This document shows, in pieces, positions 6,420-56,305 of a stretch of 64,000 bases of DNA (its first letter is position 1; every line of letters begins with the position of its first letter). The stretch is taken from the NCBI RefSeq assembly GCF_034120055.1, contig NZ_CP139368.1, positions 186,001 to 250,000 of the forward strand, read 5' to 3'. The position numbers were made by a program, and so were the translations under genes. The notes under the pieces were generated by a model that searched no databases, was not told the DNA's origin, and saw only the letters and a list, made by a program, of their open reading frames with translations. The DNA is from Microbacterium rhizosphaerae. GTDB taxonomy: Bacteria > Actinomycetota > Actinomycetes > Actinomycetales > Microbacteriaceae.

Positions 6420-7436
6420 ATGCTCAGCGACGAGGAGTCCGCCGAACTGGCGGAACTGCGCCGTCGCGCCTGGGGCGAGACCCCGGATATCCTCGACGAC
6501 CCGGCGGCGCTCTCCCGGCTCGAGGAGCTGGAGGACAGGGCCCGTCCCGACCGCTCCCCGAGCGTCGACCGGTCCCCGAGCGTCGACCGGTCTCCGAGCG
6601 TCGACCGGTCCCCGAGCGTCGACCGGTCCCCGAGCGTCGACCGGTGCCCGAGCTTGTCGAGGGGCGGCACCGACGATCAGCGCAGGGACGACCCCTCGAC
6701 AGGCTCGGGGACCGCGGTTGGCATGCCGACGGAGGATCCGGTTGAGCGAGGGAGCGCCGGCGACCGAGACGAGACGCGGGACGCAGAACCACGTTCCGAC
6801 CCGCACGAGCAGACGCCACCGGACCAGCCGCGCACGGGCGCGAAGCGCGGCATCCTGCTCGTCCTCGGGGTCGTCATCACCGTCGTCGCCCTTGCGGCCG
6901 GGGTGCGCAGCATCCTGAATCCGGCATCCCCGCCCGCGACCGCCTCCCCCAGCCCCACGTTCGCGTTCGCGACGCCGCGGATTCTGCCCGCCCTCGCGTG
7001 CGGAGACGGCTGGGGACCACCCAGCAGCCTGTCGACACCCGCGGGCAAGCCGGTCTGGAGCCGGCAGTTCGACTTCCCGATCAGCGAGACGTGGGTGATG
7101 CCCCACCGGGGCGCCCGGATGGTCGGCGTCTGGGCGAACCTCGATGTGGATGCGGGGACGATCTCCGACGTCCAGGTCGTGAGCCCGACGACCGCCCGCC
7201 TGTTCTACACGGCGGCGAGGACCTGGACCTCTCCGCCCTCCCCCGACGAGATCATCGCGAACAGCAAGCCGGGCATCGTGCTGCCGATGTGCGACAACCC
7301 GGACAGCTATCCGGGGTTCATCCTCGCGCGGGCGCCGGCGTGCGTGACGCTCGAGTTCACCGTGGCCGGCACCGCCCACTACACGGTTCGCACGCCCGTC
7401 GGCCTCGACGAGGGCGCCCGCTGCCCGACGCCGTGA
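6420..7436 (+). CDS. Single-pass membrane protein with repeat-derived linker, unknown function
   Basis: A 338-residue protein. Residues 1-40 are acidic and helical. Residues about 43-80 are six degenerate DRSPSV units encoded by an 18-bp tandem repeat, followed by repeat-derived DPSTGSGT. One membrane helix lies near 142-160 (GILLVLGVVITVVALAAG). The remaining 175 residues would be extracytoplasmic and contain a few Cys. No known domain is recognised. It begins 7 bp after purC and could be co-transcribed with it. The low-complexity linker matches the dispersed repeat family found elsewhere in the window, so it probably expanded from repeat DNA rather than being under functional selection. Confidence 0.7.
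   Translation: MLSDEESAELAELRRRAWGETPDILDDPAALSRLEELEDRARPDRSPSVDRSPSVDRSPSVDRSPSVDRSPSVDRCPSLSRGGTDDQRRDDPSTGSGTAVGMPTEDPVERGSAGDRDETRDAEPRSDPHEQTPPDQPRTGAKRGILLVLGVVITVVALAAGVRSILNPASPPATASPSPTFAFATPRILPALACGDGWGPPSSLSTPAGKPVWSRQFDFPISETWVMPHRGARMVGVWANLDVDAGTISDVQVVSPTTARLFYTAARTWTSPPSPDEIIANSKPGIVLPMCDNPDSYPGFILARAPACVTLEFTVAGTAHYTVRTPVGLDEGARCPTP
6548..6664. repeat. 18-bp tandem repeat (six units) ending in a family-1 repeat core
   Basis: Units start at 6548, 6566, 6584, 6602, 6620 and 6638. Each contains CCCCGAGCGTCGACC with one or two changes, and the last runs into an intact GAGCTTGTCGAGGGG. It lies inside the coding region and keeps the frame because the unit is a multiple of three. 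Confidence 0.9.
6692..6713. repeat. Family-1 dispersed repeat copy
   Basis: Contains the core CCCCTCGACAGGCTCGGGG followed by ACC, in frame inside the membrane protein gene (encodes PSTGSGT). Confidence 0.9.
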
Positions 7437-7478
7437 CGCCGGGGCCGGCATCCCTATGCACGGCCTGTGCGCCGCCGA

Positions 7479-7518
7479 TATCGTGAATCAGCCTTTCCAC
7501 TGAGCACGAGGAGCGATG
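7479..7518 (+). promoter_or_regulatory. Promoter -10 and ribosome binding site of the permease gene
   Basis: A TATCGT hexamer at 7479-7484 would start a leader of about 30 nt. A purine-rich CGAGGAG at 7507-7513 precedes the ATG at 7520 and supports that start over the out-of-frame ATG at 7516. Confidence 0.4.
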
Positions 7519-7519
7519 C

Positions 7520-8857
7520 ATGGCGATCTGGAAGATCCACGGCAATGGGCGCACCGTCGAACCCGGTCAGGTCGTGCGCCCCGATGAGCGGATGAGCTGG
7601 CCCGCCACGGTCGCGATCGGGGCGCAGCACGTCGTCGCGATGTTCGGCGCGACGTTCCTGGTGCCGATCCTGACCGGCTTCCCCGTCTCGACGACGCTGT
7701 TCTTCTCCGGCATCGGCACGATCCTGTTCCTGCTCATCACGCGCAACCGCCTGCCCAGCTACCTCGGGTCGTCGTTCGCCTTCATCGCCCCGGTGACCGC
7801 CGCCGTGGCGTCGTCGAAGGAGACGGGCATGGGCACCGCCCTCGCCGGCATCGTCGCGGTCGGCATCCTGCTCGCCCTCGTCGGTCTCCTCGTCCAGTTC
7901 GTCGGCGTGGGGTGGGTCGACCGGTTCATGCCACCGGTCGTCGCCGGCGCGATCGTGTGCCTCATCGGCCTGAACCTCGCGCCCGCCGCGTGGAACAACT
8001 TCAAGGTGCAGCCGCTCACCGCGACCATCACGCTGACGGCCGTCATCCTGTTCAGCGTGCTCTTCCGCGGATTCCTCGGTCGGATCTCGATCTTCCTCGG
8101 CGTGATCGTCGGCTACATCGCGGCCGGCATCCAGGGTCAGATCGACTGGAAGGCCGTGAGCGGCGCCGACTGGGTGGGACTCCCCGAGTTCCACCTGGCG
8201 AACTTCACTGCGCCGGGCACGTGGGCCGCGATCGCGATGTTCCTGCCGGTCGTCCTCGTGCTCATCGCCGAGAACGTCGGGCACGTGCGCGCGGTCGCGA
8301 CCATGACCGACAGCACGGTCAACAAGGAGACCGGGCGCGCCCTCATCGCGGACGGCGTCTCGACGACGGTGGCCGGCCTGTTCGGCGGATCGGGCACGAC
8401 GACCTACGGCGAGAACATCGGCGTCATGGCCGCCACCCGCGTGTACTCGACGGCGGCGTATTGGGTGGCCGGGCTCGTGGCGGTCCTGCTCGCGCTGTCG
8501 CCCAAGATCGGCGCCCTCTTCAACACGATCCCGGCCGGCGTGCTCGGCGGCGCCACGACCGCGCTGTACGGCCTCATCGGCATCATCGGCATCAAGATCT
8601 GGGTCGACAACCGCGTCGACTTCTCGCGCCCGGTGAACCAGTACACCGGCGCGGTCGCACTCGTCATCGCGATCGCGAACTTCACCATGAGCTGGGGACA
8701 GTTCCAGCTCACCGGCATCGTGCTCGGCGCGGCAGCGGCCCTGCTGATCTACCACCTCGGCAACGCGATCGCCCGCGCGCGGAAGACGGGCGCGGATGAC
8801 GGCGGTCCGATCCCGGCCGTCGGGCCCCTCGGCGGAGACCCTGTCGAGGCCGAATAG
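7520..8857 (+). CDS. Uracil/xanthine permease (NCS2 family)
   Basis: A 445-residue integral membrane protein of NCS2 length (14 segments in UraA). Near the N-terminus it has WPATVAIGAQHVVAMFGATF, the family's conserved first helix with QH. The signature Glu-containing stretch VLVLIAENVGHVRAV lies near residue 255, and GGSGTTTYGENIG near 292 is the second substrate-site motif. NCS2 proteins import uracil, xanthine or uric acid with protons. The closest look is to uracil permeases, but substrate cannot be fixed by eye. A hairpin follows the stop. Confidence 0.9.
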   Translation: MAIWKIHGNGRTVEPGQVVRPDERMSWPATVAIGAQHVVAMFGATFLVPILTGFPVSTTLFFSGIGTILFLLITRNRLPSYLGSSFAFIAPVTAAVASSKETGMGTALAGIVAVGILLALVGLLVQFVGVGWVDRFMPPVVAGAIVCLIGLNLAPAAWNNFKVQPLTATITLTAVILFSVLFRGFLGRISIFLGVIVGYIAAGIQGQIDWKAVSGADWVGLPEFHLANFTAPGTWAAIAMFLPVVLVLIAENVGHVRAVATMTDSTVNKETGRALIADGVSTTVAGLFGGSGTTTYGENIGVMAATRVYSTAAYWVAGLVAVLLALSPKIGALFNTIPAGVLGGATTALYGLIGIIGIKIWVDNRVDFSRPVNQYTGAVALVIAIANFTMSWGQFQLTGIVLGAAAALLIYHLGNAIARARKTGADDGGPIPAVGPLGGDPVEAE

Positions 8858-8868
8858 CTCCTGATCGC

Positions 8869-8908
8869 CCGCCCGGAGATTGTTGCCGCGGGAACAATCT
8901 CCGGGCGG
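8869..8908. terminator. Strong hairpin after the permease gene
   Basis: A perfect 16-bp inverted repeat whose left arm begins CCGCCCGGAGATTGTT, with an 8-nt loop GCCGCGGG. No T-tract follows. It lies between the permease stop and the next start, so it is probably a terminator; its symmetric AT-containing centre could instead be an operator for the downstream gene. Confidence 0.6.
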
Positions 8909-8916
8909 ACGGCGTT

Positions 8917-9825
8917 GTGACCGGTATGAGCGAGTTCACGACCGGATCCGAGCGGCGGGCGACCCAGGATCGCATCGCCGCCGACACGTCCATGGGCGCT
9001 GTGACCCTGCTGGTCGCGGATCTGGATGCGATGATCCGCTTCTACCGGGATGCCGTGACCCTCGAGCTGCTGACGGCCGACGGCGGTGCCGCCGTCCTCG
9101 GTCGTGCCGGACGGCCGATCGTGATCCTCCGGCACGAGCCGACCCTGCGCCATGCGACCCAGGGATCAGCCGGCCTCTACCACACGGCGATCCTGTTCGA
9201 GTCGCAGACGGCTCTCGCCGCCGCGCTCTCGTCGGTCGCGCGCAACGCACCCGGGACGTTCACCGGCAGCGCCGACCACCTGGTCAGCCAGGCGTTCTAC
9301 TTCACCGATCCGGAGGGCAACGGCGTCGAGCTGTACTGGGATCGGCTGCGCACCGAGTGGTCGTGGGCGCACGGGCAGGTGCAGATGGACACCGTCTACC
9401 TCGACCCGAACCGGTACCTGCGCGAACACCTGACGGAGGATGCGCTGGCCGGATCGACGGCTCGGGATGCGGCATCCGTCGGTCACGTCCATCTCTCGGT
9501 CGGCGACGTGCGCACCGCTCGCGCCTTCTATGTCGACACGCTCGGCTTCGACGCGACGGCGACCCTCGGCGACACCGCGCTCTTCGTCAGCGCCGGCGGC
9601 TATCACCACCACATGGCCATGAACGTGTGGAACTCGCGCGGCGCCGGTCCCCGCATGCCGGCCCTCGGGCTCGGCCGCATCGATCTGGCGCTTCCGGATG
9701 CCGACGCCCTCGGCTCGCTGCAGGAGCGGCTGCGCCACCGCGGCTTCGCCGTGCGCGACGACGGCCGCACACTGAGCTTCGACGACCCGTGGAACAACGC
9801 GCTGCACGCTGTCGTCGCCGGCTGA
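8917..9825 (+). CDS. VOC-family two-domain protein, catechol 2,3-dioxygenase-like
   Basis: A 302-residue protein with two vicinal-oxygen-chelate modules. The first runs MGAVTLLVADLDAMIRFY to GVELYWD, with a candidate metal His in LYHTAIL and Glu in VELYW. The second starts GHVHLSVGDVRTARAFY and continues through HHHMAMNVW. This matches CatE-like proteins of Bacillus, annotated as catechol 2,3-dioxygenases. Extradiol cleavage is therefore possible, but no aromatic degradation genes are nearby. Translation may start at GTG 8917 or ATG 8926; 8917 is given as the outer limit, though it lies only 8 bp from the hairpin. Confidence 0.8.
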   Translation: MTGMSEFTTGSERRATQDRIAADTSMGAVTLLVADLDAMIRFYRDAVTLELLTADGGAAVLGRAGRPIVILRHEPTLRHATQGSAGLYHTAILFESQTALAAALSSVARNAPGTFTGSADHLVSQAFYFTDPEGNGVELYWDRLRTEWSWAHGQVQMDTVYLDPNRYLREHLTEDALAGSTARDAASVGHVHLSVGDVRTARAFYVDTLGFDATATLGDTALFVSAGGYHHHMAMNVWNSRGAGPRMPALGLGRIDLALPDADALGSLQERLRHRGFAVRDDGRTLSFDDPWNNALHAVVAG

Positions 9826-9834
9826 GAGCGGCGA

Positions 9835-10845
9835 TCAGGCGGACTCCCGGACCACCAGCCCCGTCGGCATGATGCGGGAGTTCGGTATGGCGATTCCCGC
9901 GAGCCGGTCGATGAGCATGCTCGCCATCTCCTCGCCCTGGAGGAACGACGGCTGACGCATCGTCGTGAGCGCCGGAGAGACGGAGGTCGCGATGGGCGAG
10001 TCGTCGAACCCGATCAACGCGACATCCTCCGGTACGCGCAGCCCCGCGGCGGCGAGGGCGTGCAGAGCACCCCGGGCCATCAGATCGCTGGCCGCGAACA
10101 CCGCATCCGGGCGCTCCCCGGACGCGAGGATCCGACGCATCGCCTCGGCTCCGCCCTCATCCGTGAAGTTGCCGTTCTCGACGGCGCCCGGGGTGAGGCC
10201 CGCAGCTGCCAGCGCCTCCCGCCATCCCGTCAGCCGGTCCATCGCCGCAGGCATCGTCTGCGGACCCGTGATCGTCGCGATCCTCCGGTGGCCCCGCCCG
10301 ATGAGGTACTCGGTCGCCTCCCGGCCGCCACGCACGTTGTCGACGTCGACGTAGTAGTCGTCGTCGCGCAGCTTCACCGGCCGGCCGCCGTAGACGACCG
10401 GCACGGCGTCGGCGATGCGGTCGATGAACGTGTCGCTCGTGTGGTGCGAGACGATGATCGCGCCGTCGACGTTGCCGCGGCTGAGGTAGCTCGTCATCTT
10501 GTCGCCCGGGTCGCTGTTGGCGATGAAGAGGTTCAGCACGTAGTCCGACCGAGCGATGCGGGCGTTGATGCCCGACACGATGGCCGCGAAGAACGGGTCT
10601 CCGAAGAACCGCGTCGTCTCCTCGGGGACCACCAGCGCGATCGCGAGCGTCTGACGACTGGCGAGCGACCTCGCCGCACGGTTGGGAACGTAGTGGAGGT
10701 CCGAGATGGCCTTCGACACGGCCTCCAGCGCCGAGGGGCTCACGGAGGTCGCGCCGTTGACGACGCGCGACACGGTCGAGCGCGAGACGCCCGCGGCCGC
10801 CGCCACCTCTTCGATCGTGACAGGCGATGGCAGCCTATCCGTCAT
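9835..10845 (-). CDS. cebR: LacI family regulator, probable CebR
   Basis: A 336-residue repressor. The LacI helix-turn-helix and hinge are clear (VTIEEVAAAAGVSRSTVSRV, then LHYVPNRAARSLASRQ), followed by a periplasmic-binding-like sugar sensor ending with the VALIGFDDSP motif. It lies downstream of a cellobiose-type ABC transporter and beta-glucosidase whose promoter carries three TGGGAGCGCTCCCA-like boxes, the operator described for Streptomyces CebR. It should therefore repress that operon and release on cellobiose or cellotriose. The gene starts 32 bp after the GH1 stop and may be part of the same transcript. Confidence 0.85.
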   Translation of the reverse strand: MTDRLPSPVTIEEVAAAAGVSRSTVSRVVNGATSVSPSALEAVSKAISDLHYVPNRAARSLASRQTLAIALVVPEETTRFFGDPFFAAIVSGINARIARSDYVLNLFIANSDPGDKMTSYLSRGNVDGAIIVSHHTSDTFIDRIADAVPVVYGGRPVKLRDDDYYVDVDNVRGGREATEYLIGRGHRRIATITGPQTMPAAMDRLTGWREALAAAGLTPGAVENGNFTDEGGAEAMRRILASGERPDAVFAASDLMARGALHALAAAGLRVPEDVALIGFDDSPIATSVSPALTTMRQPSFLQGEEMASMLIDRLAGIAIPNSRIMPTGLVVRESA

Positions 10846-10877
10846 GTCGCTCCCTCCGCGCTGCGCCGCTGCAGCAC

Positions 10878-12317
10878 TCAGATCGTGCGCGTCCGTGCGA
10901 TCCGACTGTACGCGAGGCCGCTGTCCTTGACCGATCGCTCCTGGGTCTCGTAGTCGACGCGCACGATGCCGAACCGCTTCTCGTACCCCCACGCCCACTC
11001 GAAGTTGTCGAGGAGCGACCAGTAGAAGTAGCCTCGCACGTCGACGCCGGCGTCCACCGCATCCAGGATCGCGCCGAGGTGGCTCTCGACGAAGTCGACC
11101 CGCTCCGCATCGTGGATGCGCGTCTCGCCGTCCTCGACGACGGCGACGTCGTCGTACGCGGCGCCGTTCTCGGTGACGAAGAGCGACACCCCCGGCTCGG
11201 CGGCATACTCCTCCCACACGCGCACCAGCAGGCGCGTGAGGCCCTCGGGCTGCACCTCCCAGTTCATGGGGGTGCGCGCCAGGCCGCGATCGTGCCAGTG
11301 GATACCTGTTTGCGACGGGAACGGCGAGTCCGCGCGCCGGCCCGTCGGTGCGTCGCCCGGGGCCGGCGGGTCGGCCGGCTCGTGGCCGCCGACGTAGTCG
11401 CCGTGGTAGTAGTTCACGCCGAGCGTGTCGATGCGCGTCGCGATGGCCTCGAGGTCGCCCGGGCGCACGGCGTCCTCGAATTCCGCCACCGCGGCGGAAT
11501 CGACCACGCGGATGTCCTCGATGATGTCGGCCGGGTACGCGCCCCGGAACACCGGGTCGAGGAACCAGCGGTTGAACTGTCCGTCGATGCGCCGTGCGGC
11601 GTCGACGTCCGCGGGGTCGGCCGCATCGACCGGGTCGGCCACCGTGAGGTTGAGGGTCAGCCCCAGGTTCAGCGTCGCGTCGCGCCTGCGCAGCTCGCGC
11701 ACGGTCTGGCCGTGGGCGAGGAGGAGGTGGTGGGATGCCAGCATCCCCTCGGCGATGCTGTAGTGCCCCGGCGCGTGGATGCCCGCGGTGTAGCTGAGGA
11801 ACGACGCGCACCACGGCTCGTTGAGCGTGGTCCACACGTTCACGCGGTCACCCAGCGCGTCGTGCATCCCGAGCGCATACTCGGTGAACAGATCCGCGGT
11901 GTCGCGGCTGGTCCAGCCGCCCGTCTCCTGCAGGGCCTGCGGGAGGTCCCAGTGATAGAGCGTGAGCCAGGGCAGGATGCCCGCATCCAGCAGCTCGTCG
12001 ACGAGGCGCGAGTAGAAGTCGACGCCCGCCGCGTTCACCGGGCCGCCGTCCGGGCGCACGCGCGACCACGAGGTCGAGAAGCGGTACGTCTCCAGGCCCA
12101 TGCGCTTCATGAGGGCCACGTCGTCGCGGTAGCGGTCGTAGTGGTCGCACGCGATGTCGCCGTCGTCGCCGTTGATCACCGCACCGGGCACCCGGCAGAA
12201 CGCGTCCCAGATCGAATCGCGGCGACCGTCCACGTGCGCGGCGCCCTCGATCTGGAAGGCGGCCGTGGCCGCTCCGAAGAGGAAATCGTCCGGGAACGCA
12301 CGAGGCGTCGAGTGCAT
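10878..12317 (-). CDS. bglC: GH1 beta-glucosidase
   Basis: A 479-residue family 1 glycoside hydrolase. The N-terminus FPDDFLFGAATAAFQIEGA is the family signature. The acid/base Glu is in TLNEPWC near residue 166 and the nucleophile Glu in LFVTENGAAY in the last third. There is no signal peptide, so it acts in the cytosol on imported cellobiose or short beta-glucosides. The ATG at 12315-12317 has GGAAAGGAAAC upstream. An alternative ATG at 12356 overlapping the permease stop would add 13 residues. It is in one operon with the ABC transporter genes. Confidence 0.92.
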   Translation of the reverse strand: MHSTPRAFPDDFLFGAATAAFQIEGAAHVDGRRDSIWDAFCRVPGAVINGDDGDIACDHYDRYRDDVALMKRMGLETYRFSTSWSRVRPDGGPVNAAGVDFYSRLVDELLDAGILPWLTLYHWDLPQALQETGGWTSRDTADLFTEYALGMHDALGDRVNVWTTLNEPWCASFLSYTAGIHAPGHYSIAEGMLASHHLLLAHGQTVRELRRRDATLNLGLTLNLTVADPVDAADPADVDAARRIDGQFNRWFLDPVFRGAYPADIIEDIRVVDSAAVAEFEDAVRPGDLEAIATRIDTLGVNYYHGDYVGGHEPADPPAPGDAPTGRRADSPFPSQTGIHWHDRGLARTPMNWEVQPEGLTRLLVRVWEEYAAEPGVSLFVTENGAAYDDVAVVEDGETRIHDAERVDFVESHLGAILDAVDAGVDVRGYFYWSLLDNFEWAWGYEKRFGIVRVDYETQERSVKDSGLAYSRIARTRTI

Positions 12318-12352
12318 CTCTGTTTCCTTTCCGGATGCGATGAACGCCGAAG

Positions 12353-14337: not shown

Positions 14338-14355
14338 GACGCTCCCTCGAGAAGG

Positions 14356-14390
14356 GGATGCTGCGGGCCCTGCTCGAGCCCGCAGCATCC
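14356..14390. terminator. Intercistronic hairpin between binding-protein and permease genes
   Basis: Perfect 12-bp arms GGATGCTGCGGG and CCCGCAGCATCC around an 11-nt loop. It lies just after the binding-protein stop and before the permease start. Such hairpins commonly allow partial read-through or protect the upstream mRNA so that more binding protein than permease is made. Confidence 0.7.
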
Positions 14391-14398
14391 GGCTGTCG

Positions 14399-26281: not shown

Positions 26282-28449
26282 CCACCGCCGTCTACGGACA
26301 CGCAACAGAACCGGCGACTCCTCCGGCACCGAAGAAGACCCGGGCGTTCGGCTGGTCGCAGCTCGTGCAGGCGCTTCCGGGCGCGCTGCGCAAGCTCAAC
26401 CCCGCCGACCAGTGGCGCAACCCCGTCATGATGCTCGTGTGGGTGGGCGCCGTTCTGACGACGGTCATCGCGATCGCGCAGCCGTTCATCCCCGCGATGC
26501 AGACGTCGGGCGGCGCACCGGTCCCCCTGCTGTTCACGTGGGGCATCGCGATCTGGCTCTGGATCACCGTGATCTTCGCCAACCTGGCCGAATCGGTCGC
26601 CGAGGGCCGGGGCAAGGCGCAGGCGGCCACGCTCCGCAAGACGCGCGCGACGACGATGGCCACGCGGGTCGCGGGCTACGACGAGAAGGGGGATGCTGCG
26701 GCATCCCGCGCCGCGACGGAGCAGGTCGCCTCGACCGACCTGAAGCTCGGCGACGTGGTCGTCGTGACCGCCGGAGAGCTCATCCCCGGCGACGGGGACA
26801 TCATCGCCGGCATCGCGACCGTCGACGAGTCGGCGATCACGGGCGAGTCCGCCCCGGTGGTGCGCGAGTCGGGCGGTGACCGCAGCGCCGTGACCGGCGG
26901 GACGCGCGTGCTCTCCGACCGGATCGTCGTGCGGATCACCTCGAAGCCGGGTGAGACGTTCGTCGACCGCATGATCGCCCTCGTCGAGGGCGCCGCACGT
27001 CAGCGGACGCCGAACGAGATCGCGCTCAGCATCCTGCTCTCGAGCCTCACGATCATCTTCCTCATCGTGGTGCTCACCCTGAACCCCGTGGCCTCGTACG
27101 CGGCGAAGCCGGCCGGCATCGCGGTGCTCGTCGCACTGCTCGTCTGCCTCATCCCGACGACGATCGGCGCGCTGCTCTCGGCGATCGGCATCGCCGGCAT
27201 GGACCGCCTCGTGCAGCACAACGTGCTCGCGATGTCGGGGCGCGCGGTCGAGGCGGCAGGCGACGTCACGACGCTGCTGCTCGATAAGACCGGCACGATC
27301 ACCTACGGCAACCGGCGGGCGACGGAGTTCGTCGCGCTGCCGGGCGTCGAGCAGGGCGAGCTGACCCGCATCGCCGCCGAATGCTCCCTCGCCGACCCCA
27401 CGCCGGAGGGGACGTCGGTGGTGGAGCTCGCGGCGGGGCGCGGCATCCACGTGTCCGCTCCGGCGGATGCGACGGTCGTGCCGTTCACCGCCCAGACGCG
27501 CATGAGCGGTCTCGACCTGCCCGACGGCTCCCAGCTGCGCAAGGGCGCCGGATCGGCGGTCCTCGCCTGGCTCGACGAGAACGGGGCGCAGGTGACGGAT
27601 GCGACGCGCACGGCGCTGACCGGCATCGTCGACGGCATCGCCGCCGACGGCGGCACGCCGCTCGTGGTCGCCGTGTCCGGCCCCTCGACGAGCTCGGGGA
27701 CCGGAGGTGCGCGGCCACTGGGGGTCATCCACCTCAAGGACATCGTCAAGGACGGTCTGCGCGAGCGTTTCGTCGAGATGCGGGCGATGGGCATCCGCAC
27801 CGTCATGATCACGGGTGACAACCCGCTCACGGCGAAGGCGATCGCGACCGAGGCGGGCGTCGACGACTACCTCGCCGAAGCCACGCCCGAGGACAAGCTG
27901 GCGCTCATCCGGCGGGAGCAGGAGGGCGGCAACCTCGTCGCGATGACCGGCGACGGCACGAACGATGCTCCCGCGCTGGCGCAGGCGGACGTCGGGGTCG
28001 CGATGAACACCGGAACCTCGGCGGCGAAGGAGGCCGGCAACATGGTCGACCTCGACTCCGACCCCACGAAGCTCATCGACATCGTGCGCATCGGCAAGCA
28101 GCTGCTCATCACCCGCGGCGCGCTGACGACGTTCTCGCTCGCGAACGACATCGCGAAGTACTTCGCGATCATCCCGGCGATGTTCATGGTCGTGTACCCC
28201 GGGCTCGGGGTGCTGAACGTCATGGGCCTGCACTCCCCCGCCTCGGCGGTCACGAGCGCGATCATCTTCAACGCGATCATCATCGTGCTGCTCATCCCGC
28301 TGGCCCTCCGCGGAGTCACCTATCGGCCCGCGAGCGCATCGCAGATCCTGGGCCGCAATCTGCTCATCTACGGGCTCGGCGGGATCATCGCGCCGTTCAT
28401 CGGCATCAAGCTCATCGACCTCGTCATCGGCCTGATCCCGGGCTTCTGA
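26278..28449 (+). CDS. kdpB: Potassium-transporting ATPase ATP-binding subunit KdpB
   Basis: A 723-residue P-type ATPase that pumps K+ with KdpA. The phosphorylated Asp is in DKTGTIT at residue 336, [10 protein letters not shown] is the actuator motif, and [21 protein letters not shown] is the hinge motif. Residues 468-476 (GPSTSSGTG) are encoded by a copy of the dispersed family-1 repeat and lie where Escherichia coli KdpB has only a short turn before LGVI, as I recall its sequence. This looks like an in-frame insertion in a surface loop between the nucleotide-binding and phosphorylation parts. All catalytic motifs are intact, so the protein should be active. Confidence 0.97.
27681..27702. 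repeat. Family-1 dispersed repeat copy inside kdpB
   Basis: CCCCTCGACGAGCTCGGGG followed by ACC; read in frame it encodes PSTSSGT. Confidence 0.85.
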
Positions 28450-34147: not shown

Positions 34148-34352
34148 CCATACGGACAGGTCCCCGAGCCTGTCGAGGGGCCCCGAGCCTCCATACGGAC
34201 AGGTCCCCGAGCCTGTCGAGGGGCCCCGAGCCTCCATGCGGACAGGTCCCCGAGCCTGTCGAGGGGCCACCCCTCGACAAGCTCGGGGACCGGGTTGTCG
34301 AGGGGCTACCCGCGCAGATCGCAGGGGCCACCCCTCGACAAGCTCGGGGACC
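34148..34352. repeat. Array of family-1 repeats: three direct 43-bp units plus two inverted copies
   Basis: Units at 34148-34190 and 34191-34233 are identical in layout and a third begins at 34234 and diverges after its core. Each holds CCCCGAGCCTGTCGAGGGG. Inverted cores lie at 34270-34291 and 34331-34352 (with an A in place of the central G). Together with a second-family fragment at 34355-34380 they fill the sufU-hydrolase intergenic gap. The opposed copies can form a large cruciform or bidirectional terminator between the convergent genes. Confidence 0.92.
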
Positions 34353-34354
34353 GG

Positions 34355-34380
34355 GTTTCAGTGAGCGGGACGAAACGCGG
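34355..34380. repeat. Family-2 dispersed repeat fragment
   Basis: Contains GAGCGGGACGAAACGC, the sequence also present at 43818-43850 after purL. Confidence 0.7.
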
Positions 34381-34394
34381 TCGCCGGCACAGCT

Positions 34395-35281: not shown

Positions 35282-36283
35282 TCACACGGAGGCGAGCACC
35301 TCTCGTTCGAGCCGCTGGTAGCTGGTCTCCATGCCCTCGGTCATGCCCGTGGCGAGCACGGCGTCGCGGGTCGCGGCATCCGGGTATTCGATGAGGAGGG
35401 TGAGCAGCGTCGCGCCGTCCTCCTCGTAGAGCTGCAGGTCGTTGACCGTGCTCGGGTAGTCGGTGCCCGTCATGTGCTCCGTCGTGACGCTGCGGCGCGG
35501 GGCGTCGACGACGAGGGTCTCGCCGTCGAAGCCGAAGGCCTGCCCGGCGGGCCCCGAGCCTGTCGAGGGGTCGACCACAGGCTCCCACGCGTAGCGATAG
35601 CGGCCGCCGACCGTCGGGTCGACCTCGCACACGCTCATGCGCCAGCCGTCAGGGCCGAGCAGCCACTGCTGGAGCAGCTCCGGCTCGGTGTGCGCACGCC
35701 ACACGAGCTCGCGCGGACCCTCGACGAGGCGCGTGATGCGCACGTGCTGGTCATCGAGGATCTCGACCTGGGTGCCCTTGCCCTGCGCGTACTCGCGCAG
35801 GCTCTGCAGCACCGTGTCGAGCTGAGCCATCGCCATCCGCGTGCCCTCGACCATGCCCATCGCCACCGACTGCTCGAGCGCGGTGAGCGACTCGAAGTGC
35901 GTCACGCCGGTGAACCGGGTGCGATCTCCGTCGGACTCGAACGAGAAGACCATCCGCATCGGCGCCATCTCGGACACGAAGTCGCCATCCGCGTCGGCGA
36001 AGCCGTCGAGCACCTCGTACGACCGCGGCTCGTCGATGCGCAGGAACTCCCACCGGGCATGGTGCGTCGCGCCGTGGGGACCGGTCAGCGAGTACTGGGC
36101 CAGCCCGCCGGGCGTGAAGTCGAACCTGCTGAACGTGGCGGGCCATCCCGGAGGGCCCCAGAACCGCTCGAGCTGGCGCGGGTCGGTGAACACGGACCAC
36201 ACGCGGTCGACGGATGCGTCGAACTCGGCGGCGATGTTCATCGTCAGGGCCTCGGGATCACTGGTGATCTGGGTGACGGGCAT
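35282..36283 (-). CDS. Two-domain SRPBCC/AHSA1 protein
   Basis: A 333-residue protein with two START-like AHSA1 modules. The first runs from about residue 15 (IAAEFDASVDRVWSVFTDP) to 165 and the second from about 175 (ITRLVEGPRELVWRAHTEPE) to the end. Residues about 238-245 (DPSTGSGP) come from a family-1 repeat inside the second module, in a loop after YRYAWEPVV. Such proteins bind hydrophobic ligands in a cavity; in actinobacteria they commonly pair with an ArsR gene. The ArsR gene overlaps its 5' end by 26 bp. GGAGGAAGCA precedes the ATG. Confidence 0.85.
   Translation of the reverse strand: MPVTQITSDPEALTMNIAAEFDASVDRVWSVFTDPRQLERFWGPPGWPATFSRFDFTPGGLAQYSLTGPHGATHHARWEFLRIDEPRSYEVLDGFADADGDFVSEMAPMRMVFSFESDGDRTRFTGVTHFESLTALEQSVAMGMVEGTRMAMAQLDTVLQSLREYAQGKGTQVEILDDQHVRITRLVEGPRELVWRAHTEPELLQQWLLGPDGWRMSVCEVDPTVGGRYRYAWEPVVDPSTGSGPAGQAFGFDGETLVVDAPRRSVTTEHMTGTDYPSTVNDLQLYEEDGATLLTLLIEYPDAATRDAVLATGMTEGMETSYQRLEREVLASV
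35552..35570. repeat. Family-1 dispersed repeat copy inside the AHSA1 gene
   Basis: CCCCGAGCCTGTCGAGGGG on the plus strand; on the coding strand it reads in frame as part of DPSTGSGP. Confidence 0.9.
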
Positions 36284-36644
36284 TGCTTCCTCCTGGGGTG
36301 TCCGGTCTGGGTGGTTCGGCGAGCAGCGCGTCGATGGCGTCGATGCGGTGCCGCCAGAGCTCCTGGTAGCGCTCGAGCAGCTGCTGCGCCCGGGCGATGC
36401 GTGCGGGGTCGGTGCGCACGAGTCGCTCCCTTCCCTCGGCCCGCTTGATGATCAGGCGGGCGGCCTCGAGCACGGCGACGTGCTTCTGCACCGCGGCGAA
36501 CGACATGTCGTAGGCCGCGGCGAGCGCCGAGACCGACTGCTCGGCCTCGATCGTGCGGCGCAGGATGTCGCGCCGCGTCGCGTCGGCGAGGGCCCGGAAG
36601 ATCCGGTCCACCTCGTCGTCGGTCAGCTGTTCTTCTACAACCAT
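36258..36644 (-). CDS. ArsR family transcriptional regulator
   Basis: A 128-residue winged-helix protein: IFRALADATRRDILRRT is the typical ArsR opening and SFAAVQKHVAVLEAARLI the recognition helix. No Cys metal-site motif is present, so it is of the non-metal type that pairs with SRPBCC proteins. It leads the three-gene operon and overlaps the AHSA1 gene. A palindrome covers its start codon, suggesting tight autorepression. Confidence 0.9.
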   Translation of the reverse strand: MVVEEQLTDDEVDRIFRALADATRRDILRRTIEAEQSVSALAAAYDMSFAAVQKHVAVLEAARLIIKRAEGRERLVRTDPARIARAQQLLERYQELWRHRIDAIDALLAEPPRPDTPGGSNARHPDHQ

Positions 36645-48287: not shown

Positions 48288-48351
48288 ATTGGTCATTTCT
48301 GCCGATGCCGACCTTCGGCGCTCTCCGTAGCGTGAGCGAGAAGGAGGCATC

Positions 48352-49449: not shown

Positions 49450-49467
49450 CTCCTCGGGCTCGCCGGG

Positions 49468-50667
49468 TCACGGCAGGGCGACGAGGCAGGTCGGCGACGG
49501 GACAGCAGTCCGGTGCCGCACCTTGCCCGGGACCCCGGTGCGCGTATCGAGGGTGAGCGAGGCGACGTCGTCCGACTTCTGACCCGCGACGAGCAGGGTG
49601 TCGCGCACCACGAGGTGGTGGCGCGGCCAATCCACCCCGGCCTCGACGAGTGCGACAGGTTCGAGCGATTCGCCCGAGCCGCGCACGCGCAGCGTTCCGA
49701 TCGTGTTCGTGCCGCGCACTCCGGCGTACAGGAACGCGGCGTCGTGCGACAGCGCGAGCTCGGCGCCCGTGTCGGTCGGCAGGACCCCGGGCGCGATGGA
49801 CGTGCCGCCCACGACGCTCCAGACGCCCTCGCGCGAGGCGCCGAGGACGAACACCTCGTGCGACAGCTCGGTGATGACGTACACGTGGCCGCTGGGGTGG
49901 CGCACCATGTGCCGCGGGCCGCTGCCCTTCGGCAGAACGACCTGCTGCACGGGGCGGAGCCCCTCGGGCGTCGCACGCCAGAACCGGACGAGGTCGTAAC
50001 CGAGGTCGGTCGTGACCACGAGCCCGCCGGGCAGGAACATCGCCTCGTGCGCCCGCGAGACGCGCGCGTCGGCGTCCTGCGGCTCGGCCTCGGCATGCGT
50101 CAGCGCCTGCGCCGCCTCCTCCTCACCGTCGCCGCCCGGGATCAGGTACGCGTATTCGCCCGCGACCTCGCGCAGAGCGCGGGCCGCGGCGGCGAGGTCG
50201 ATGCCGCCGTCCGTGCCGTCCGCATCCCTCGGCGGCGCGTCGGGACCGTAGGGATCGACAGCGGCGGGAGCGATGGATGCCGCGCCCGGCCGGCCCGCGG
50301 CATCCAGACCCACACGGACCACGCGTCCGTCGCCCCAGCACGCCGCGACGAGGTACGACGCATCCGGAGACACGACGACGTGGCAGTTCAGCCGGCCGGT
50401 CGGAACCGGCTCGCCCAGCGCGACGAAGCTCTGCTCGCCGGTCCGGCGGAAGCCCTGCACCGCCCCCGTGCCCTCGAGCGACGCGTAGACGACGTCGAGC
50501 GACGGATGTCGCGCCACCCACGACGGCGAATCGGCCGTCGCGACCGTGCCGGCGAAGCCGAGGGGTCCGCCCGCCAGGGCGTCATCCGGAGCGCCGGCGA
50601 ACAGCATCCCGATTCCGGAGCCCGCTCCGTCCATGTCGGCGGTGTAGCCGCCCGTCAGGAACCTCAT
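49468..50667 (-). CDS. Beta-propeller lactonase-family protein
   Basis: A 399-residue protein resembling the seven-bladed YbhE/Pgl lactonase fold: it opens [18 protein letters not shown], with [20 protein letters not shown] and [20 protein letters not shown] as propeller repeats. True 6-phosphogluconolactonase activity is known for E. coli Pgl, but many relatives have other or unknown roles. No signal peptide. Its ATG overlaps the purA stop (ATGA), so it is translationally coupled to purA. An acidic loop near 195-205 is unusual. Confidence 0.8.
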
Positions 50668-51947
50668 ACGAGATCGTGGCGCACGACGACTTCGTCGCGC
50701 GCAGGGCCGACGCCGACGACCGAGATGCGGGTGCCGCTCATCGCCTCGAGGGCGAGGATGTACTCCTGCGCCTCGACCGGCAGCTCGTCGAAGGTGCGGG
50801 CGCCCGAGATGTCGGCCTTCCAACCGGGCAGGTACTCGTAGATCGGCTTCGCGTGGTGGAAGTCGGTCTGGTTGACCGGCATCTCGTCGAAGCGCACGCC
50901 GTCGACGTCGTACGCGACGCACACCGGGATGCGGTCGAGCCCCGTCAGGATGTCGAGCTTCGTGAGCACGAGGTCGGTGATGCCGTTGATCCGCGTGGCG
51001 TAGCGCGTGACCGGAGCGTCGTACCAGCCGACGCGACGGGGTCGGCCGGTCGTCGTGCCGAACTCGAAGCCCCGCGAGCGCAGCCAGTCGCCGCTCTCGT
51101 CGAACAGCTCCGTCGGGAACGGGCCGGAGCCGACGCGCGTCGTGTAGGCCTTGACGATGCCCACGATGCGGTCGAGGCGGTTCGGACCCACGCCGGAGCC
51201 GGTGGCAGCGCCGCCCGCGGTCGCGGACGAGGACGTCACGAAGGGGTACGTGCCGTGGTCGACGTCCAGCATCGTGGCCTGTCCGCCCTCGAAGACGACG
51301 ACCTCTCCGGCGTCGAGCGCGTCGTTGAGCAGCAGCGACGTGTCGGCGACCATCGGCGCGAGGCGCTCGGTGTACGACAGGAGGTCGTCGACGATCTCGT
51401 CGCACGTGATCGCGCGGCGGTTGAAGACCTTCACGAGCATGTGGTTCTTCTGATCGAGGGCACCCTCGACCTTCTGCCGAAGGATGTTCTCGTCGAAGAG
51501 GTCCTGCACCCGGATACCGACGCGGTTGATCTTGTCCGCGTAGGCCGGGCCGATGCCGCGCCCGGTCGTGCCGATCTGCCGCTTGCCGAGGAAGCGTTCG
51601 GTCACCTTGTCGAGTGTCCGGTGGTACTGCGTGATGATGTGCGCGTTGGCGCTGATCCGCAAGCGCGACGTGTCGAGGCCGCGGGCGTTCAGCGCCTCGA
51701 GCTCGTTGAAGAGCACCTCGAGGTCGACGACGACGCCGTTGCCGATCACCGGGTTGACTCCGGGGGTCAGGATGCCGCTCGGCAGCAGGTGCAGGGCGTA
51801 CTTCTCGTCACCGATGACGACCGTGTGCCCTGCGTTGTTGCCGCCGTTGAACTTGACCACCCAGTCGGTGCGGTCGCCGAGGAGGTCGGTGGCCTTGCCT
51901 TTCCCCTCGTCCCCCCACTGGACTCCGATGATCACGATTCCTGGCAT
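50664..51947 (-). CDS. purA: Adenylosuccinate synthetase
   Basis: A 427-residue GTP-dependent enzyme joining IMP and aspartate, the first step to AMP. It begins [20 protein letters not shown], the P-loop motif containing the catalytic Asp. GNNAGHTV holds the catalytic His, and [16 protein letters not shown] binds IMP. Length matches the family. CGGAGGGC lies upstream of the ATG at 51947. Its promoter is mirrored with that of the divergent membrane protein gene. Confidence 0.97.
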
Positions 51948-51983
51948 GAAGCCCTCCGGGTGTCTCAGGTCGGGTTGCACCCC

Positions 51984-51989
51984 ATCCTA
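51984..51989 (-). promoter_or_regulatory. -10 element TAGGAT of purA
   Basis: Read on the minus strand, overlapping the left arm of the 51986-52018 inverted repeat; gives a leader of about 30 nt. Confidence 0.5.
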
Positions 51990-52018
51990 TCGAGGAGGTC
52001 GGCGCCCTCCTCGATAGG
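51986..52018. promoter_or_regulatory. Inverted repeat holding two divergent promoters
   Basis: Perfect 13-bp arms CCTATCGAGGAGG and CCTCCTCGATAGG with a 7-nt centre. The -10 elements of purA and of the Pr6Pr-like gene overlap its two outer ends, so each promoter's -35 region lies in the opposite arm. Confidence 0.7.
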
Positions 52019-52020
52019 GT
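52015..52020 (+). promoter_or_regulatory. -10 element TAGGGT
   Basis: Located 6 nt before the ATG at 52027; leaderless-type spacing. Confidence 0.5.
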
Positions 52021-52026
52021 GAGCGC

Positions 52027-52764
52027 ATGCTGCAGACCACGGCGTGGGCGCGGGCGTGGACGATCGCCCGTATGGCAGGCGCCCTGCTCATCCTCATCGG
52101 AGTCGCCGCCCAGGCGGCGAAGACGTTCAGCGGGGCGCTCGAGAAGCACCAGGACGTGGCCACCGTCATCGTCAACTTCTTCAGCTTCTTCACGGTCCTG
52201 TCCAACTGCGGCGCGTGCATCGTGCTGGCCTGGGCGGCGGTCTGGTTCTGGACTCGGGCGAAGGATGCCGGTCCCGAGCCGCGCGGTCTCGGCCTCGCCC
52301 TCGCGTCGGTCTCGACCTACATGATCGTCACGGGAATCGTGTACAACCTTCTGCTGCGGGGCATTGCGCTCCCGCAGGGGACGACCGTGTGGTGGTCGAA
52401 TGAGATCCTGCACGTCGTCGGGCCGCTGTTCCTGCTGCTCGACGTGTTCCTCGGCCCGCGACGCCGATGCCTCGGCTGGGGGGCGATCGGCGTCGTGCTG
52501 ATCTTCCCGCTCGCCTGGGTGGCGTACACGCTGATCCGCGGCGAGCTCGTCGTCAACCCCGTGACGGGCGAGCACTGGTGGTACCCGTATCCGTTCCTGA
52601 ACCCGCACCTGGGCGGCTATCCCTCGGTCTGGCCTTATGTCGTCGGCATCGCCGTGGCGCTCGGCGTGGTCGCGGCCGGTGTGGTCTGGGTGAGCCGGCG
52701 GCGCGGTCGCGCAGCATCCCCGGACGATCAGTCCGTCGGCAGTCCGGCCCTCGCCAGCAGCTGA
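52027..52764 (+). CDS. Pr6Pr family membrane protein
   Basis: A 245-residue protein with about six membrane helices, FAR-17a/AIG1-like in layout. VNFFSFFTVLSNCGACIVLAW and EILHVVGPLFLLLDVFL hold the conserved Asn/Ser and His positions, and WWYPYPFLNPHLGGYPSVWPYV is the usual near-C-terminal loop. The function of these six-helix proteins is unknown. The last 37 bp overlap the convergent NUDIX gene. Confidence 0.82.
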   Translation: MLQTTAWARAWTIARMAGALLILIGVAAQAAKTFSGALEKHQDVATVIVNFFSFFTVLSNCGACIVLAWAAVWFWTRAKDAGPEPRGLGLALASVSTYMIVTGIVYNLLLRGIALPQGTTVWWSNEILHVVGPLFLLLDVFLGPRRRCLGWGAIGVVLIFPLAWVAYTLIRGELVVNPVTGEHWWYPYPFLNPHLGGYPSVWPYVVGIAVALGVVAAGVVWVSRRRGRAASPDDQSVGSPALASS

Positions 52765-53117
52765 ACCGCGGGGAGGTCGGCGGGCGCCCACTCCAGGTCG
52801 CCCAGCTCGTGCGGCGGGACCCACCGGAGCTCCGAGTGCTCGGTCGGCTCCGGCATGCCGTCGACGAGCCGGCAGAAGTAGGTCGTCAGGACCACGTGAC
52901 CGTGGGTCGTCGACTCGACGTGGTCGCCGACCTCGACGGTGCACCGCAGCTCCTCGATGAGCTCGCGGCGGAGCGCCTCCTGGGGCGTCTCGCCCGCTTC
53001 GACCTTGCCGCCGGGGAACTCCCACATCCCGGGCAGGTCCATCTGCGGCCCGCGCCGCGCGGCCAGGACACGTCCGTCGTCGACGAGCACCGCGCCGACC
53101 ACCTCGATCTGCCCCAC
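52728..53117 (-). CDS. NUDIX hydrolase, MutT-like
   Basis: A 129-residue protein with a complete Nudix box (GGKVEAGETPQEALRRELIE then EL), the metal-binding glutamates intact. VVGAVLVDDGRVLAARR opens the fold. Size and sequence resemble 8-oxo-dGTP or nucleoside triphosphate pyrophosphohydrolases that clean the nucleotide pool, but substrate is not certain. GTG 53117 was chosen because TACGGT ends 7 nt upstream. Its 3' end overlaps the convergent membrane gene by 37 bp. Confidence 0.85.
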   Translation of the reverse strand: MGQIEVVGAVLVDDGRVLAARRGPQMDLPGMWEFPGGKVEAGETPQEALRRELIEELRCTVEVGDHVESTTHGHVVLTTYFCRLVDGMPEPTEHSELRWVPPHELGDLEWAPADLPAVQLLARAGLPTD

Positions 53118-53124
53118 GGGGTCC

Positions 53125-53130
53125 ACCGTA
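53125..53130 (-). promoter_or_regulatory. -10 element TACGGT of the NUDIX gene
   Basis: Read on the minus strand, 7 nt before the GTG at 53117. Confidence 0.45.
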
Positions 53131-53207
53131 GCCCGCGCGCCGGTCGCGGGCCGAAGGCTGCCGCGGGAGTGTGACAGGGCCCGCCATCGGGGCACGTCCC
53201 GCGCAAA

Positions 53208-54647
<1,440 letters not shown>

Positions 54648-54659
54648 CTCAGACGGAAT

Positions 54660-54685
54660 TAACTTGCACAGTCGTGTGCAAGTTA
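54660..54685. promoter_or_regulatory. TetR operator overlapping the promoter
   Basis: Arms TAACTTGCACA and TGTGCAAGTTA are exact reverse complements around GTCG. The right arm overlaps the -10 element of the TetR gene. Confidence 0.8.
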
Positions 54686-54689
54686 TAGT
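54684..54689 (+). promoter_or_regulatory. -10 element TATAGT of the TetR operon
   Basis: Located 6 nt before the GTG at 54696 and partly inside the operator. Confidence 0.6.
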
Positions 54690-54695
54690 GGAGGG

Positions 54696-55343
54696 GTGAA
54701 CAGCACCCCTCCGTCTGCGCGCCGTCCCCGCCGAGATGCCCTCGAGAACCGAGCCGGCATCATCGCCGCGGCCACCGCCGCCCTCGCGCTCGACCCCCGC
54801 GCATCCCTCGACGTCATCGCCCGCGGCGCCGGCCTCACGCGCCGCGCCGTCTACGGCCACTTCGAGGATCGGGATGCGATCATCCGCGAGATCCTCGCCG
54901 GCGGCGCACCGCGCTTCAACGCCATCGCGCTCGGCATCGCCGACCCCGAGGCCCCGCTCGCGCTCGCCCGCCTGACGGCCAGGCTGTGGCGCGAGGCCGC
55001 GATGGTGCAGGTCGCCGCGGCGATCGCGCTCGACGACGCGCACGTCCACGAGACCGCCGACATCCTCGCACCGCTCCGCCGGGTCCTCCTCGCCATCGTG
55101 TGTCGCGGACAGGATGACGGCACCCTCCGCGACGACCTCCCCGCCGCGACGACCGCGCGCCTCATCGAGGAGACCGCGCGCTCGGTGGTCTCGCACCTCG
55201 ACGCATCCTCGCCCGAATCCGGGCCGGTCGCGGTCAAGGCCGTGCTCGGGATCGCGGGACTCTCGTGGACCGAGTCGAGCGCGCTGGTGGCGGCGCATCC
55301 CGATCTCTTCGACGGACCCGCCCGCGCGGAAGCGGCCGCCTGA
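54696..55343 (+). CDS. TetR family transcriptional regulator
   Basis: A 215-residue regulator. The N-terminal helix-turn-helix reads IARGAGLTRRAVYGHFEDRD with the usual preceding helix AGIIAAATAAL. The C-terminal ligand domain is Ala/Leu-rich. A 26-bp perfect palindrome overlaps its promoter, so it should repress its own operon. Its TGA overlaps the next ATG (TGATG), placing the pseudo-ABC and YhgE/Pip genes in the same transcript. Confidence 0.9.
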   Translation: MNSTPPSARRPRRDALENRAGIIAAATAALALDPRASLDVIARGAGLTRRAVYGHFEDRDAIIREILAGGAPRFNAIALGIADPEAPLALARLTARLWREAAMVQVAAAIALDDAHVHETADILAPLRRVLLAIVCRGQDDGTLRDDLPAATTARLIEETARSVVSHLDASSPESGPVAVKAVLGIAGLSWTESSALVAAHPDLFDGPARAEAAA

Positions 55344-56305
55344 TGCGCGTTGAGCTGCAGGAGGTCTCGAAAGGCCTCGCCCTTCCGACGACCTCGCTCG
55401 CGTACTCCTCCGGCGAGGCTGTCGTCGCGGTCGCCGAGACCGAGCAGCGGCCGACGGTGCTCGGCCTCATCGCCTCGGGCCGCATGCGCTCGGCGACGGG
55501 GCACGTCCTCATCGATGGACGGGAGGACGCCGCGACCCTCCGGCGAAGGGTCGCCCTGGTCGACGCCCCCGCGGTCAGCGACCCGGCTCCCGATGTCACC
55601 GTCGCGGGCGTCACGGCCGAGGAGCTCATGTTCGCCGGCCGCACCGCCACTCCGATCGCCGTGCGGCGATGGCTGGATGCCGCGGGCTTCGGCGACCTCG
55701 CCCGTGTGCCGATCGGCGACGTGCCGGCCCGCGAGCGCATCGCGCTCCTGCTGGAGCTGACCGCGCTCCGCGCGGGCGTCGAGGGGATCGTCCTCGTCTC
55801 GCCCGATCGCCATGGCGGCGACCCGGTCGAGTGGATGCAGCTCGCCGACGACATCGCCGCCCGCGGCATGGCCGTGCTCGTGATCGCGGGAGAGGCCGCG
55901 GCATCCCTTCTCCGCCTGTCGTCGCCCGCGGCGACCCCCCAGCCGGCACCGGTCCCCGAGCCTGTCGAGGGGCCCGAGCCTGTCGAGGGGCCCGAGCCCG
56001 CACCGGTCCCCGAGCCTGTCGAGGGGTCCGAGCCCGCACCGGTCCCCGAGCCTGTCGAGGGGCCCCAGCATCATCCTTCCGACCTGTTCGGGATTCAGTC
56101 CGCCGAGGGCGCCGAATGTGCGACACGCCGGGAATCGTCCGCGGTGATCACCGAAGAGACTGAATCCCGAACGAGCGAACCCGAACACCCCGTGACCGCA
56201 GGGACCGACCCCTCGACAGGCTCGGGGACCGACCCCTCGACACGCTCGGGGACCGAAGCGGAACACCCGGGCAGCGGACCCGAAGAAGGCGAGGACCAGC
56301 GATGA
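55343..56305 (+). CDS. Degenerate ABC-ATPase-like protein with repeat-derived tail
   Basis: A 320-residue protein. Residues 1-195 follow an ABC ATPase plan: a short opening MRVELQEVSKGLALP, then TGHVLIDGRED where the post-Walker-A strand belongs, and a late GMAVLVIAGEA like the H-loop strand. However, the Walker A site reads ETEQRPTVLGLIASGR with no GKS/T, Walker B reads GIVLVSPDRH without the Asp-Glu pair, and no LSGGQ is visible. It should not hydrolyse ATP. Residues about 200-310 are VPEPVEG and DPSTGSGT units made of dispersed repeats. It sits between the TetR and YhgE/Pip genes, overlapping the latter by 4 bp, and may be a regulatory partner of that membrane protein. Confidence 0.7.
   Translation: MRVELQEVSKGLALPTTSLAYSSGEAVVAVAETEQRPTVLGLIASGRMRSATGHVLIDGREDAATLRRRVALVDAPAVSDPAPDVTVAGVTAEELMFAGRTATPIAVRRWLDAAGFGDLARVPIGDVPARERIALLLELTALRAGVEGIVLVSPDRHGGDPVEWMQLADDIAARGMAVLVIAGEAAASLLRLSSPAATPQPAPVPEPVEGPEPVEGPEPAPVPEPVEGSEPAPVPEPVEGPQHHPSDLFGIQSAEGAECATRRESSAVITEETESRTSEPEHPVTAGTDPSTGSGTDPSTRSGTEAEHPGSGPEEGEDQR
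55951..56062. repeat. Cluster of four family-1 repeats, direct orientation
   Basis: Cores begin at 55951, 55973 (5' truncated), 56005 and 56041; all translate as PEPVEG in the pseudo-ABC gene. Confidence 0.92.
56209..56254. repeat. Two family-1 repeats, inverted orientation
   Basis: Cores at 56209-56230 and 56233-56254 translate as DPSTGSGT and DPSTRSGT near the C-terminus of the same gene. Confidence 0.92.

Follow-up and report, generated by a model that had tools for sequence, protein, structure and literature searches.

A dispersed hairpin repeat with a CGGT tag in the genome of Microbacterium rhizosphaerae

In this study, a family of short repeats was investigated in a 64,000-nucleotide stretch of the Microbacterium rhizosphaerae genome (contig NZ_CP139368.1, positions 186001-250000, 70% GC; hereafter the window) and in the complete genome, which consists of one contig of 4,057,055 bases. 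The repeat unit is a palindromic element of about 23 nt that carries the four bases CGGT (the tag) on one strand, and it is compared below with repetitive extragenic palindromic (REP) sequences. An earlier note on the window had described the repeat at five loci in about fifteen copies. The core, or truncated units of it, is present at each of the five loci, and a search with the core CCCCTCGACAGGCTCGGGG allowing up to three mismatches gave 16 matches, one of which (at 5578), with mismatched arms, was attributed to chance. The copies and their host genes are as follows, in window coordinates.

6548..6641, - strand: tandem array of units read as truncated, 18 nt, CGGTCCCCGAGCGTCGAC type (tag, 5' arm and half head)
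6642..6664, - strand: element copy with 2 mismatches to the core
6692..6714, + strand: element copy, exact, with ACCG on the right
26365..28449, + strand: kdpB, host gene of the copy at 27681
27681..27703, + strand: lone copy of the element, in the KdpB loop flanked by GGTPLVV and LGVIHLKD
34159..34352, mixed strands: intergenic cluster between convergent genes
35282..36283, - strand: AHSA1-domain gene (Pfam), host of the copy at 35552
35552..35570, - strand: single element copy, peptide DPSTGSGP, imperfect tag (CCC for ACC)
55343..56305, + strand: host open frame, directly upstream of an ABC-2 membrane-protein gene (56302-58101)
55950..56062, - strand: four element copies (55954, 55972, 56008 and 56044), PEPVEG in the host frame
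56209..56255, + strand: 24-nt tandem of two copies of the element, with the host reading the STGS frame

The copies at 6642-6664 and 6692-6714 form an inverted pair with their tags outward. The locus 6548-6713 lies between called genes, yet it is covered by an open ATG frame (6420-7436) that has no Pfam match, and the host open frame at 55343..56305 has no Pfam match either. The cluster at 34159-34352 consists of three reverse copies in 43-nt tandem (34162, 34205 and 34248) followed by two forward copies (34270 and 34331). Four of the five loci had been assigned to genes in the earlier note; by codon-bias gene calling only three are so placed (27681, 35552 and 55951-56254), and 34148-34352 is intergenic.

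The dispersed repeat is real, and the family extends beyond what the window shows. The 16 core matches in the window compare with 0.13 expected, and this number was attained in none of 100 shuffled windows. Across the genome, the core with up to two mismatches gave 122 matches (54 forward and 68 reverse) and the reversed-pattern control gave 0, a copy count above the expectation from base composition. A sister class, CCCTTCGACARGCTCAGGG, gave 45 genome matches at up to one mismatch, which overlap with the 122 matches of the core. The counts of location, frame and clustering given below refer to fetched stretches that were picked by patterns including part of the stem. In these stretches, 158 core matches had two or more stem pairs matched; 26 of them were discarded as weak, leaving 132 strong copies, and the genome holds at least that number. 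These copies fall into 58 clusters, including 39 with a single copy, and the largest contains 20.

On the tag strand, the unit of about 23 nt reads 5'-CGGT (the unpaired tag), CCC (stem), Y, the head GAGC-N-Y-GTCGA, R and GGG-3'. A genome search by the arms and right flank only (CCCY-N11-RGGGACCG) gave 101 matches versus 5 in the reversed control. Among the 100 matches listed, 95 have TCGAC-NN-GCTC, two have one changed base and three are unrelated; the head is thus recovered by a search that did not specify it, and it is fixed apart from two variable loop letters. These letters are AG in 53, AA in 39, GG in 29, GA in 7, AC in 3 and GC in 1 of the 132 copies. The right flank at +4 to +7 conforms to ACCG (A 62, C 71, C 64 and G 57 of 77 clusters), which gives a CGGT tag ahead of the hairpin when read on the other strand, and no left-flank position beyond the stem does better than G in 44 of the 77 clusters, so that the tag is one-sided. 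Among Bacteroidota loci taken by the head alone, in DNA down to 44% GC, CGGT occupies the tag place in 8 of 15 copies.

The arms vary in step, and the pairs CCC/GGG, CGC/GCG, CAC/GTG, GGC/GCC, TGC/GCA and TGG/CCA occur. For the stem test, 37 distinct copies from 30 loci in five genomes were taken by the head alone and compared with 2000 within-genome shuffles. Stem pair 2 was matched in 31 of 37 copies (shuffles: mean 21.7, maximum 30, 0/2000 as high), pair 3 in 34 (20/2000 as high) and pair 1 in 35 (45/2000 as high). The second and third stem pairs covary. This test was preferred to one on the genome's own copies, in which pair 2 was matched in 46 of 50 (shuffled mean 38.2), because the latter is biased by patterns that held part of the stem. 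The Y:R pair next to the head is C:G in 92, T:A in 36, T:G in 3 and C:A in 1 of the 132 copies, and, of the 97 related entries in the arm-and-flank list, 94 show a matched pair. Oligonucleotides with GGTCCC/GGGACC or GGTGGC/GCCACC arms fold better than shuffled sequences (z -2.2 to -3.1). On the tag strand, the head has the sequence Y-GA-G-C-N-Y-G-T-C-GA-R. We propose that its two GA steps would be opposed, enclosing the G-C pair and flanked by the Y-R pair. Stable sheared G.A pairs are favoured in Py-GA-Pu steps; T.C mismatches would take their place on the opposite strand, and recognition would then be strand-specific.

Genes were called with a home-made codon-bias script, and the called genes make up 90.9% of the fetched DNA. 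By these calls, 36 of the 58 clusters are situated inside genes, 21 are intergenic and one is both; intergenic clusters are about fourfold enriched relative to the 9.1% share of such DNA (p 1.6e-8), and 84 of the 132 copies are intergenic. The flanking genes of the 21 purely intergenic clusters are arranged as ++ in seven, +- in six, -- in five and -+ in none, with three unclassified; in the mixed cluster near 1,891,866, three copies are found between divergent genes. This distribution does not support the proposal of the earlier note that the repeat is adapted to land in genes without harming them. Its observation that all six frames are free of stops applies to the GC-rich class and fails for the sister class CCCTTCGACAGGCTCAGGG, which has a stop in one frame. 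Such openness is no special property, since 63.9% of the 19-mers in the window are stop-free in six frames and stop-free frames are ordinary at 70% GC.

Inside genes, the cluster-frame counts are STGS 17, PEPVE 12, LRQAQ 9, SLSK 3, FDRLR 0 and RACR/stop 0, a departure from equal use (p 1.2e-6) in which the top two frames account for 29 of 41 counts. Some copies near gene starts may stem from wrong start codons; when copies lying no more than 90 nt from a start or 30 nt from a stop were left out, the counts were 15, 9, 5, 3, 0 and 0 (p 6.7e-6). The two-frame bias fits selection after insertion. The spacing of same-strand neighbours is a multiple of three in 7 of 7 cases inside genes versus 13 of 52 between genes. 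Among the opposite-strand neighbour pairs, tags-out arrangements exceed tags-in arrangements (12 versus 2, p 0.013). Element orientation relative to replication gave no signal, the origin not having been located. Copies at contig positions 36513, 2551537 and 3902473 start right after ATG (ATGACCC..), as if supplying the first codons, and these may be wrong start calls.

Two in-gene sites in the window were compared with relatives. The site at 35552 is empty in all three alignable relatives (G049, G062 and G160), each of which is 18 nt shorter, and the copy is a net 18-nt insertion relative to them; a fourth relative (G133) aligns in two pieces around the site, and the core is absent there too. 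At the copy 27681, the loop is longer by about 10 residues than its counterpart in Escherichia coli KdpB (5mrw_B). We examined 45 kdpB loci, a non-random set of the 30 best-scoring (own included) and 15 hand-picked ones, ten of these for a match split at the loop. The loop contains an intact head in 11 loci (own included), a degenerate head in eight (up to three mismatches in 13, a class without a chance control), a class E repeat in three, a class F repeat in two and none in 20, and one was unread. Loops with an intact head hold one to five copies of class A, class B or the GGTGGC..GCCACC class. The site is neither always filled nor filled only in one species, and it is read as an old, reused landing place. 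Empty orthologous sites, which the earlier note had suggested looking for, are found at 35552, whereas the kdpB site is common to several congeners. The KdpB loop provides a natural record of repeats entering and decaying in a conserved protein. Class E is a palindromic repeat of the TGTCGGGAGA..TCTCCCGACA type and occupies the loop in L145, L147 and L150 (G066, G022 and G021); class F occupies it in two congeners (L143 and L152).

The distribution among genomes is patchy and wide. Of 118 genomes (own included), 42 contained the pattern CCYTCGACARGCTCRGG, and each of these belongs to the genus (71 genomes), in which copy numbers run from 0 to 307 and 29 genomes have none; the pattern was found in none of 47 genomes from other families of the order. 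In the survey of the phylum, 21 of 396 genomes (own included) matched, six with at least three matches, and the reversed control gave single matches in four genomes. In the phylum of a Bacteroidia record, 46 of 296 genomes matched, 23 with at least three, and the reversed control was 0 throughout. Genomes with a single match in these surveys are weak evidence. The head alone (YTCGACARGCTCR) gave 596, 78, 96, 69 and 641 matches in five chosen genomes, versus 3, 13, 1, 1 and 13 with the reversed pattern.

The exact 23-mer CCCCTCGACAGGCTCGGGGACCG was found in 70 stretches. The records include Microbacterium, Plantibacter, Lacisediminihabitans, Nocardioides, two Candidatus Nitrotoga, two Fibrobacteria and three Bacteroidia; several of these records are metagenome bins, and their labels span four phyla (Actinobacteria, Bacteroidia, Fibrobacteria and Nitrotoga). 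The 15 named genomes of these records that were tested have 2 to 409 matches each; the Plantibacter flavus record has 409 and 641 matches by two patterns, the second with 13 in the reversed control. One Bacteroidia copy lies in frame within a 358-codon open frame and again encodes PEPVEG. IMG/VR holds 10 stretches for CCYTCGACARGCTCRGGGACCG. One 31-base query at E up to 1 matched eight plasmid records and three phage records, and no E. coli genome at that threshold; plasmids or phages are unlikely to be the main vehicle, on this weak test.

A gene for a REP-associated tyrosine transposase (RAYT, TnpA_REP) had been suggested by the earlier note, a suggestion that the searches do not bear out. 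PF01797 (Y1/RAYT) has no match in the own genome and a match in one of 119 genus genomes (own included). Among the 15 named element-bearing genomes, it has no match in the actinobacterial ones, and none in those with 409, 194 and 141 copies (G173, G169 and G167). In the positive control, 5 of 14 control genomes matched. A Y1 match about 1 kb from the element in the Bacteroidia record L111 was rejected as an association because the element is in a neighbouring gene. A transposase beside the arrays was also considered and rejected: the flanks of seven arrays look like ordinary cell genes, as judged by eye without a family search. The flanking open frames resemble, for example, pheT, ileS, a transport ATPase and a DNA methyltransferase, the array at 1648 kb being read on one side only. 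An Rfam RNA family as the identity of the repeat was rejected, as no match in the window reached the gathering level.

Among known repeats, the closest likeness is with the CGTC-REPs. As far as the available part of their description goes (PMC3733652), these have a CGTC/TGTC/CCTC tag, an A-T foot and five-base loops in three of four families; they form mostly tags-outward dimers, are found in several phyla with some copies in genes, and apparently lack a dedicated transposase, the question of what multiplies RAYT-less REPs being left open there. The present element shares with that description the 5' four-base tag, the short stem with alternative complementary bases, a predicted five-base loop, tags-outward dimers, the spread over several phyla and some intragenic copies. 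As to a dedicated transposase, the search made here covered PF01797, which has no match in the own genome and matches in five of the 15 named element-bearing genomes. Unlike the CGTC-REPs so described, it has a CGGT tag, a C-G rather than an A-T foot and frequent tandem arrays. The element's head with YGTCATCC..GGAT arms, that is with CGTC/TGTC tags, occurs in 12 IMG/VR stretches. The head being shared with CGTC/TGTC-tagged units, the window unit would be a relative of the CGTC-REP superfamily, namely a new, sister tag family.

Other comparisons are less close. In the available part of the account in PMC8266576, TnpA_REP recognises its REPs in a strand-specific manner that relies on the GTAG tag and, for E. 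coli, also requires a bulge with a conserved mismatch. The GTAG REPs of that account share with our element an unpaired 5' tetranucleotide, a hairpin (in E. coli, one whose mismatches are conserved) and copies that are both dispersed and paired; recognition of one strand is established for them, whereas here it is only inferred. The tag here is CGGT instead of GTAG, and PF01797 is absent from the host and from the richest named genomes. Like REPs generally, the element is an imperfect palindrome of 20-40 nt with many dispersed copies. REPs are mainly extragenic, between unidirectional or convergent genes; here 84 of 132 copies and 21 of 58 clusters are intergenic, none of the 18 classified purely intergenic clusters is divergent and one mixed cluster is. 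The 36 clusters in called genes are many for a REP, and, unlike in REPs generally, for which tandem dimers are rare, inverted dimers do not predominate. Rickettsia palindromic elements, in the portion of PMC3733652 that describes them, are likewise palindromic repeats inside coding regions, unlike the present element, most copies of which are intergenic and most clusters intragenic. In a literature text search by the core letters, which does not cover sequence in figures, none of the papers listed pointed to such a repeat by its entry, and the RepRanger main text (PMC12306157) contains no mention of Microbacterium or RAYT.

The REP-like nature proposed in the earlier note is upheld by the copy number, the tag with a covarying hairpin, the patchy spread among congeners and the one empty site. 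The reading we consider probable, with due reserve, is a REP-like non-autonomous element of a new tag family, copied in trans. In this mechanism, a G.A / A.G mismatch pair would form when the head of the tag strand folds, a G-C pair would close a loop of five bases, and a folded head on that strand may be recognised as single-stranded DNA. An enzyme or a replication-repair activity acting in trans would place copies of single or paired units at new sites, and tandem arrays may then expand by slippage. Copies would persist in intergenic DNA, mainly downstream of genes, or at loops and linkers of proteins, in those frames whose peptides (STGS, PEPVE) are small and polar. The copying activity would not be a Y1/RAYT that PF01797 recognises in the element-rich actinobacterial genomes searched. 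A bolder version is distinctly more tentative: the head GAGC-N-Y-GTCGA with two stacked G.A mismatches might be a cross-phylum substrate, combined with varied tags and stems and multiplied without RAYT by a widespread single-strand DNA activity, perhaps a housekeeping one.

Several observations weigh against the copying of a non-autonomous REP-like element in trans. Transposition was not observed, and no mobilising enzyme was found, PF01797 being the sole family searched and one that a divergent enzyme would escape, and five of the 15 named element-bearing genomes (two Nitrotoga and three Bacteroidia) do have a PF01797 match. Same-orientation neighbours dominate (60 of 74 pairs), unlike in most published REP families, and one array near 743 kb contains 3 of the 12 tags-out pairs and both tags-in pairs. 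Target sites and duplications, the latter being, with terminal inverted repeats, a hallmark of MITEs, are unreadable because the congeners are distant (kdpB identity 76-85% in unsplit matches). As to the hairpin, stem pair 4 gave no signal in the copies taken by the head alone (5 of 37 matched), the Y:R pair was left out of the shuffle test, pairs 1 and 3 were not above shuffles in the own-genome test, and the window's own CCCC class does not fold better than shuffles (z -0.8 to 0.3). The G.A / A.G pairing and the closed five-base loop are themselves a model.

It is rather unlikely that the family is the relic of an ordinary RAYT-driven REP family, in which Y1 was ancestral or came from passing mobile elements and the copies were multiplied by slippage. 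The REP-like architecture, the degenerate copies in some kdpB loops and the Y1 matches in the Nitrotoga and Bacteroidia genomes would agree with such a history, whereas the lack of PF01797 in the own genome, in all but one of the 119 genus genomes and in the three copy-rich genomes argues against it, as do the hundreds of exact copies in those PF01797-free genomes and the tag CGGT in place of GTAG. A selected functional RNA or DNA site, such as a 3' hairpin, terminator or protein-binding site whose mobile look is incidental, is improbable. Most clusters are inside called genes, one site has a net 18-nt insertion, congeners range from no copies to 307, and divergent genes flank copies of the mixed cluster near 1,891,866; the Rfam result for the window also speaks against such a site, although the purely intergenic clusters do lie after genes and the stem covaries.

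Selection at the protein level would require disordered linkers (PSTGSGT, VPEPVEG) to converge on one DNA sequence, for which the concentration of the in-gene counts in two of six frames could be cited. This reading is disfavoured because of the intergenic copies, and we regard it as very improbable: the same DNA is also found in intergenic positions and on either strand, the copies use four frames, the stem letters covary at the DNA level and the unit occurs in 44% GC DNA. A product of base composition or assembly is hardly conceivable, GC-rich as the genome is, given the control counts (0 versus 122 in the genome, 0.13 expected versus 16 in the window), the one-contig genome and the presence of the repeat in independent genomes of several phyla. 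With a compact unit, up to several hundred copies in Microbacteriaceae and 29 of 71 genus genomes free of it, a search for genes that track copy number and a single-strand cleavage assay are possible for the non-autonomous REP-like element that we favour.

Further repeats and arrays were observed. Large 23-nt tandem arrays are situated at 1648653-1649216 (20 copies) and 1456751-1456953 (about 10 copies); they follow genes that, as judged by eye, resemble pheT and, convergently, a cystathionine-type enzyme. At 884099-884999 (L172), the N-terminus of an open frame that by eye resembles a DNA methyltransferase consists of an 18-nt element array with six (P/T)E(P/L)VEV units. Class F, an apparent second palindromic repeat as judged by eye (GTTTCGTCTCGC..GCTCGCTCAACGACC type), one arm of which starts with TGAG and finishes with CGAA, adjoins the element in the window at 34352-34385 and 6735-6775. 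Between both element groups of the open frame at 55343..56305, a 15-nt perfect inverted repeat, GTTCGGGATTCAGTC / GACTGAATCCCGAAC, is found at 56086-56100 and 56158-56172.

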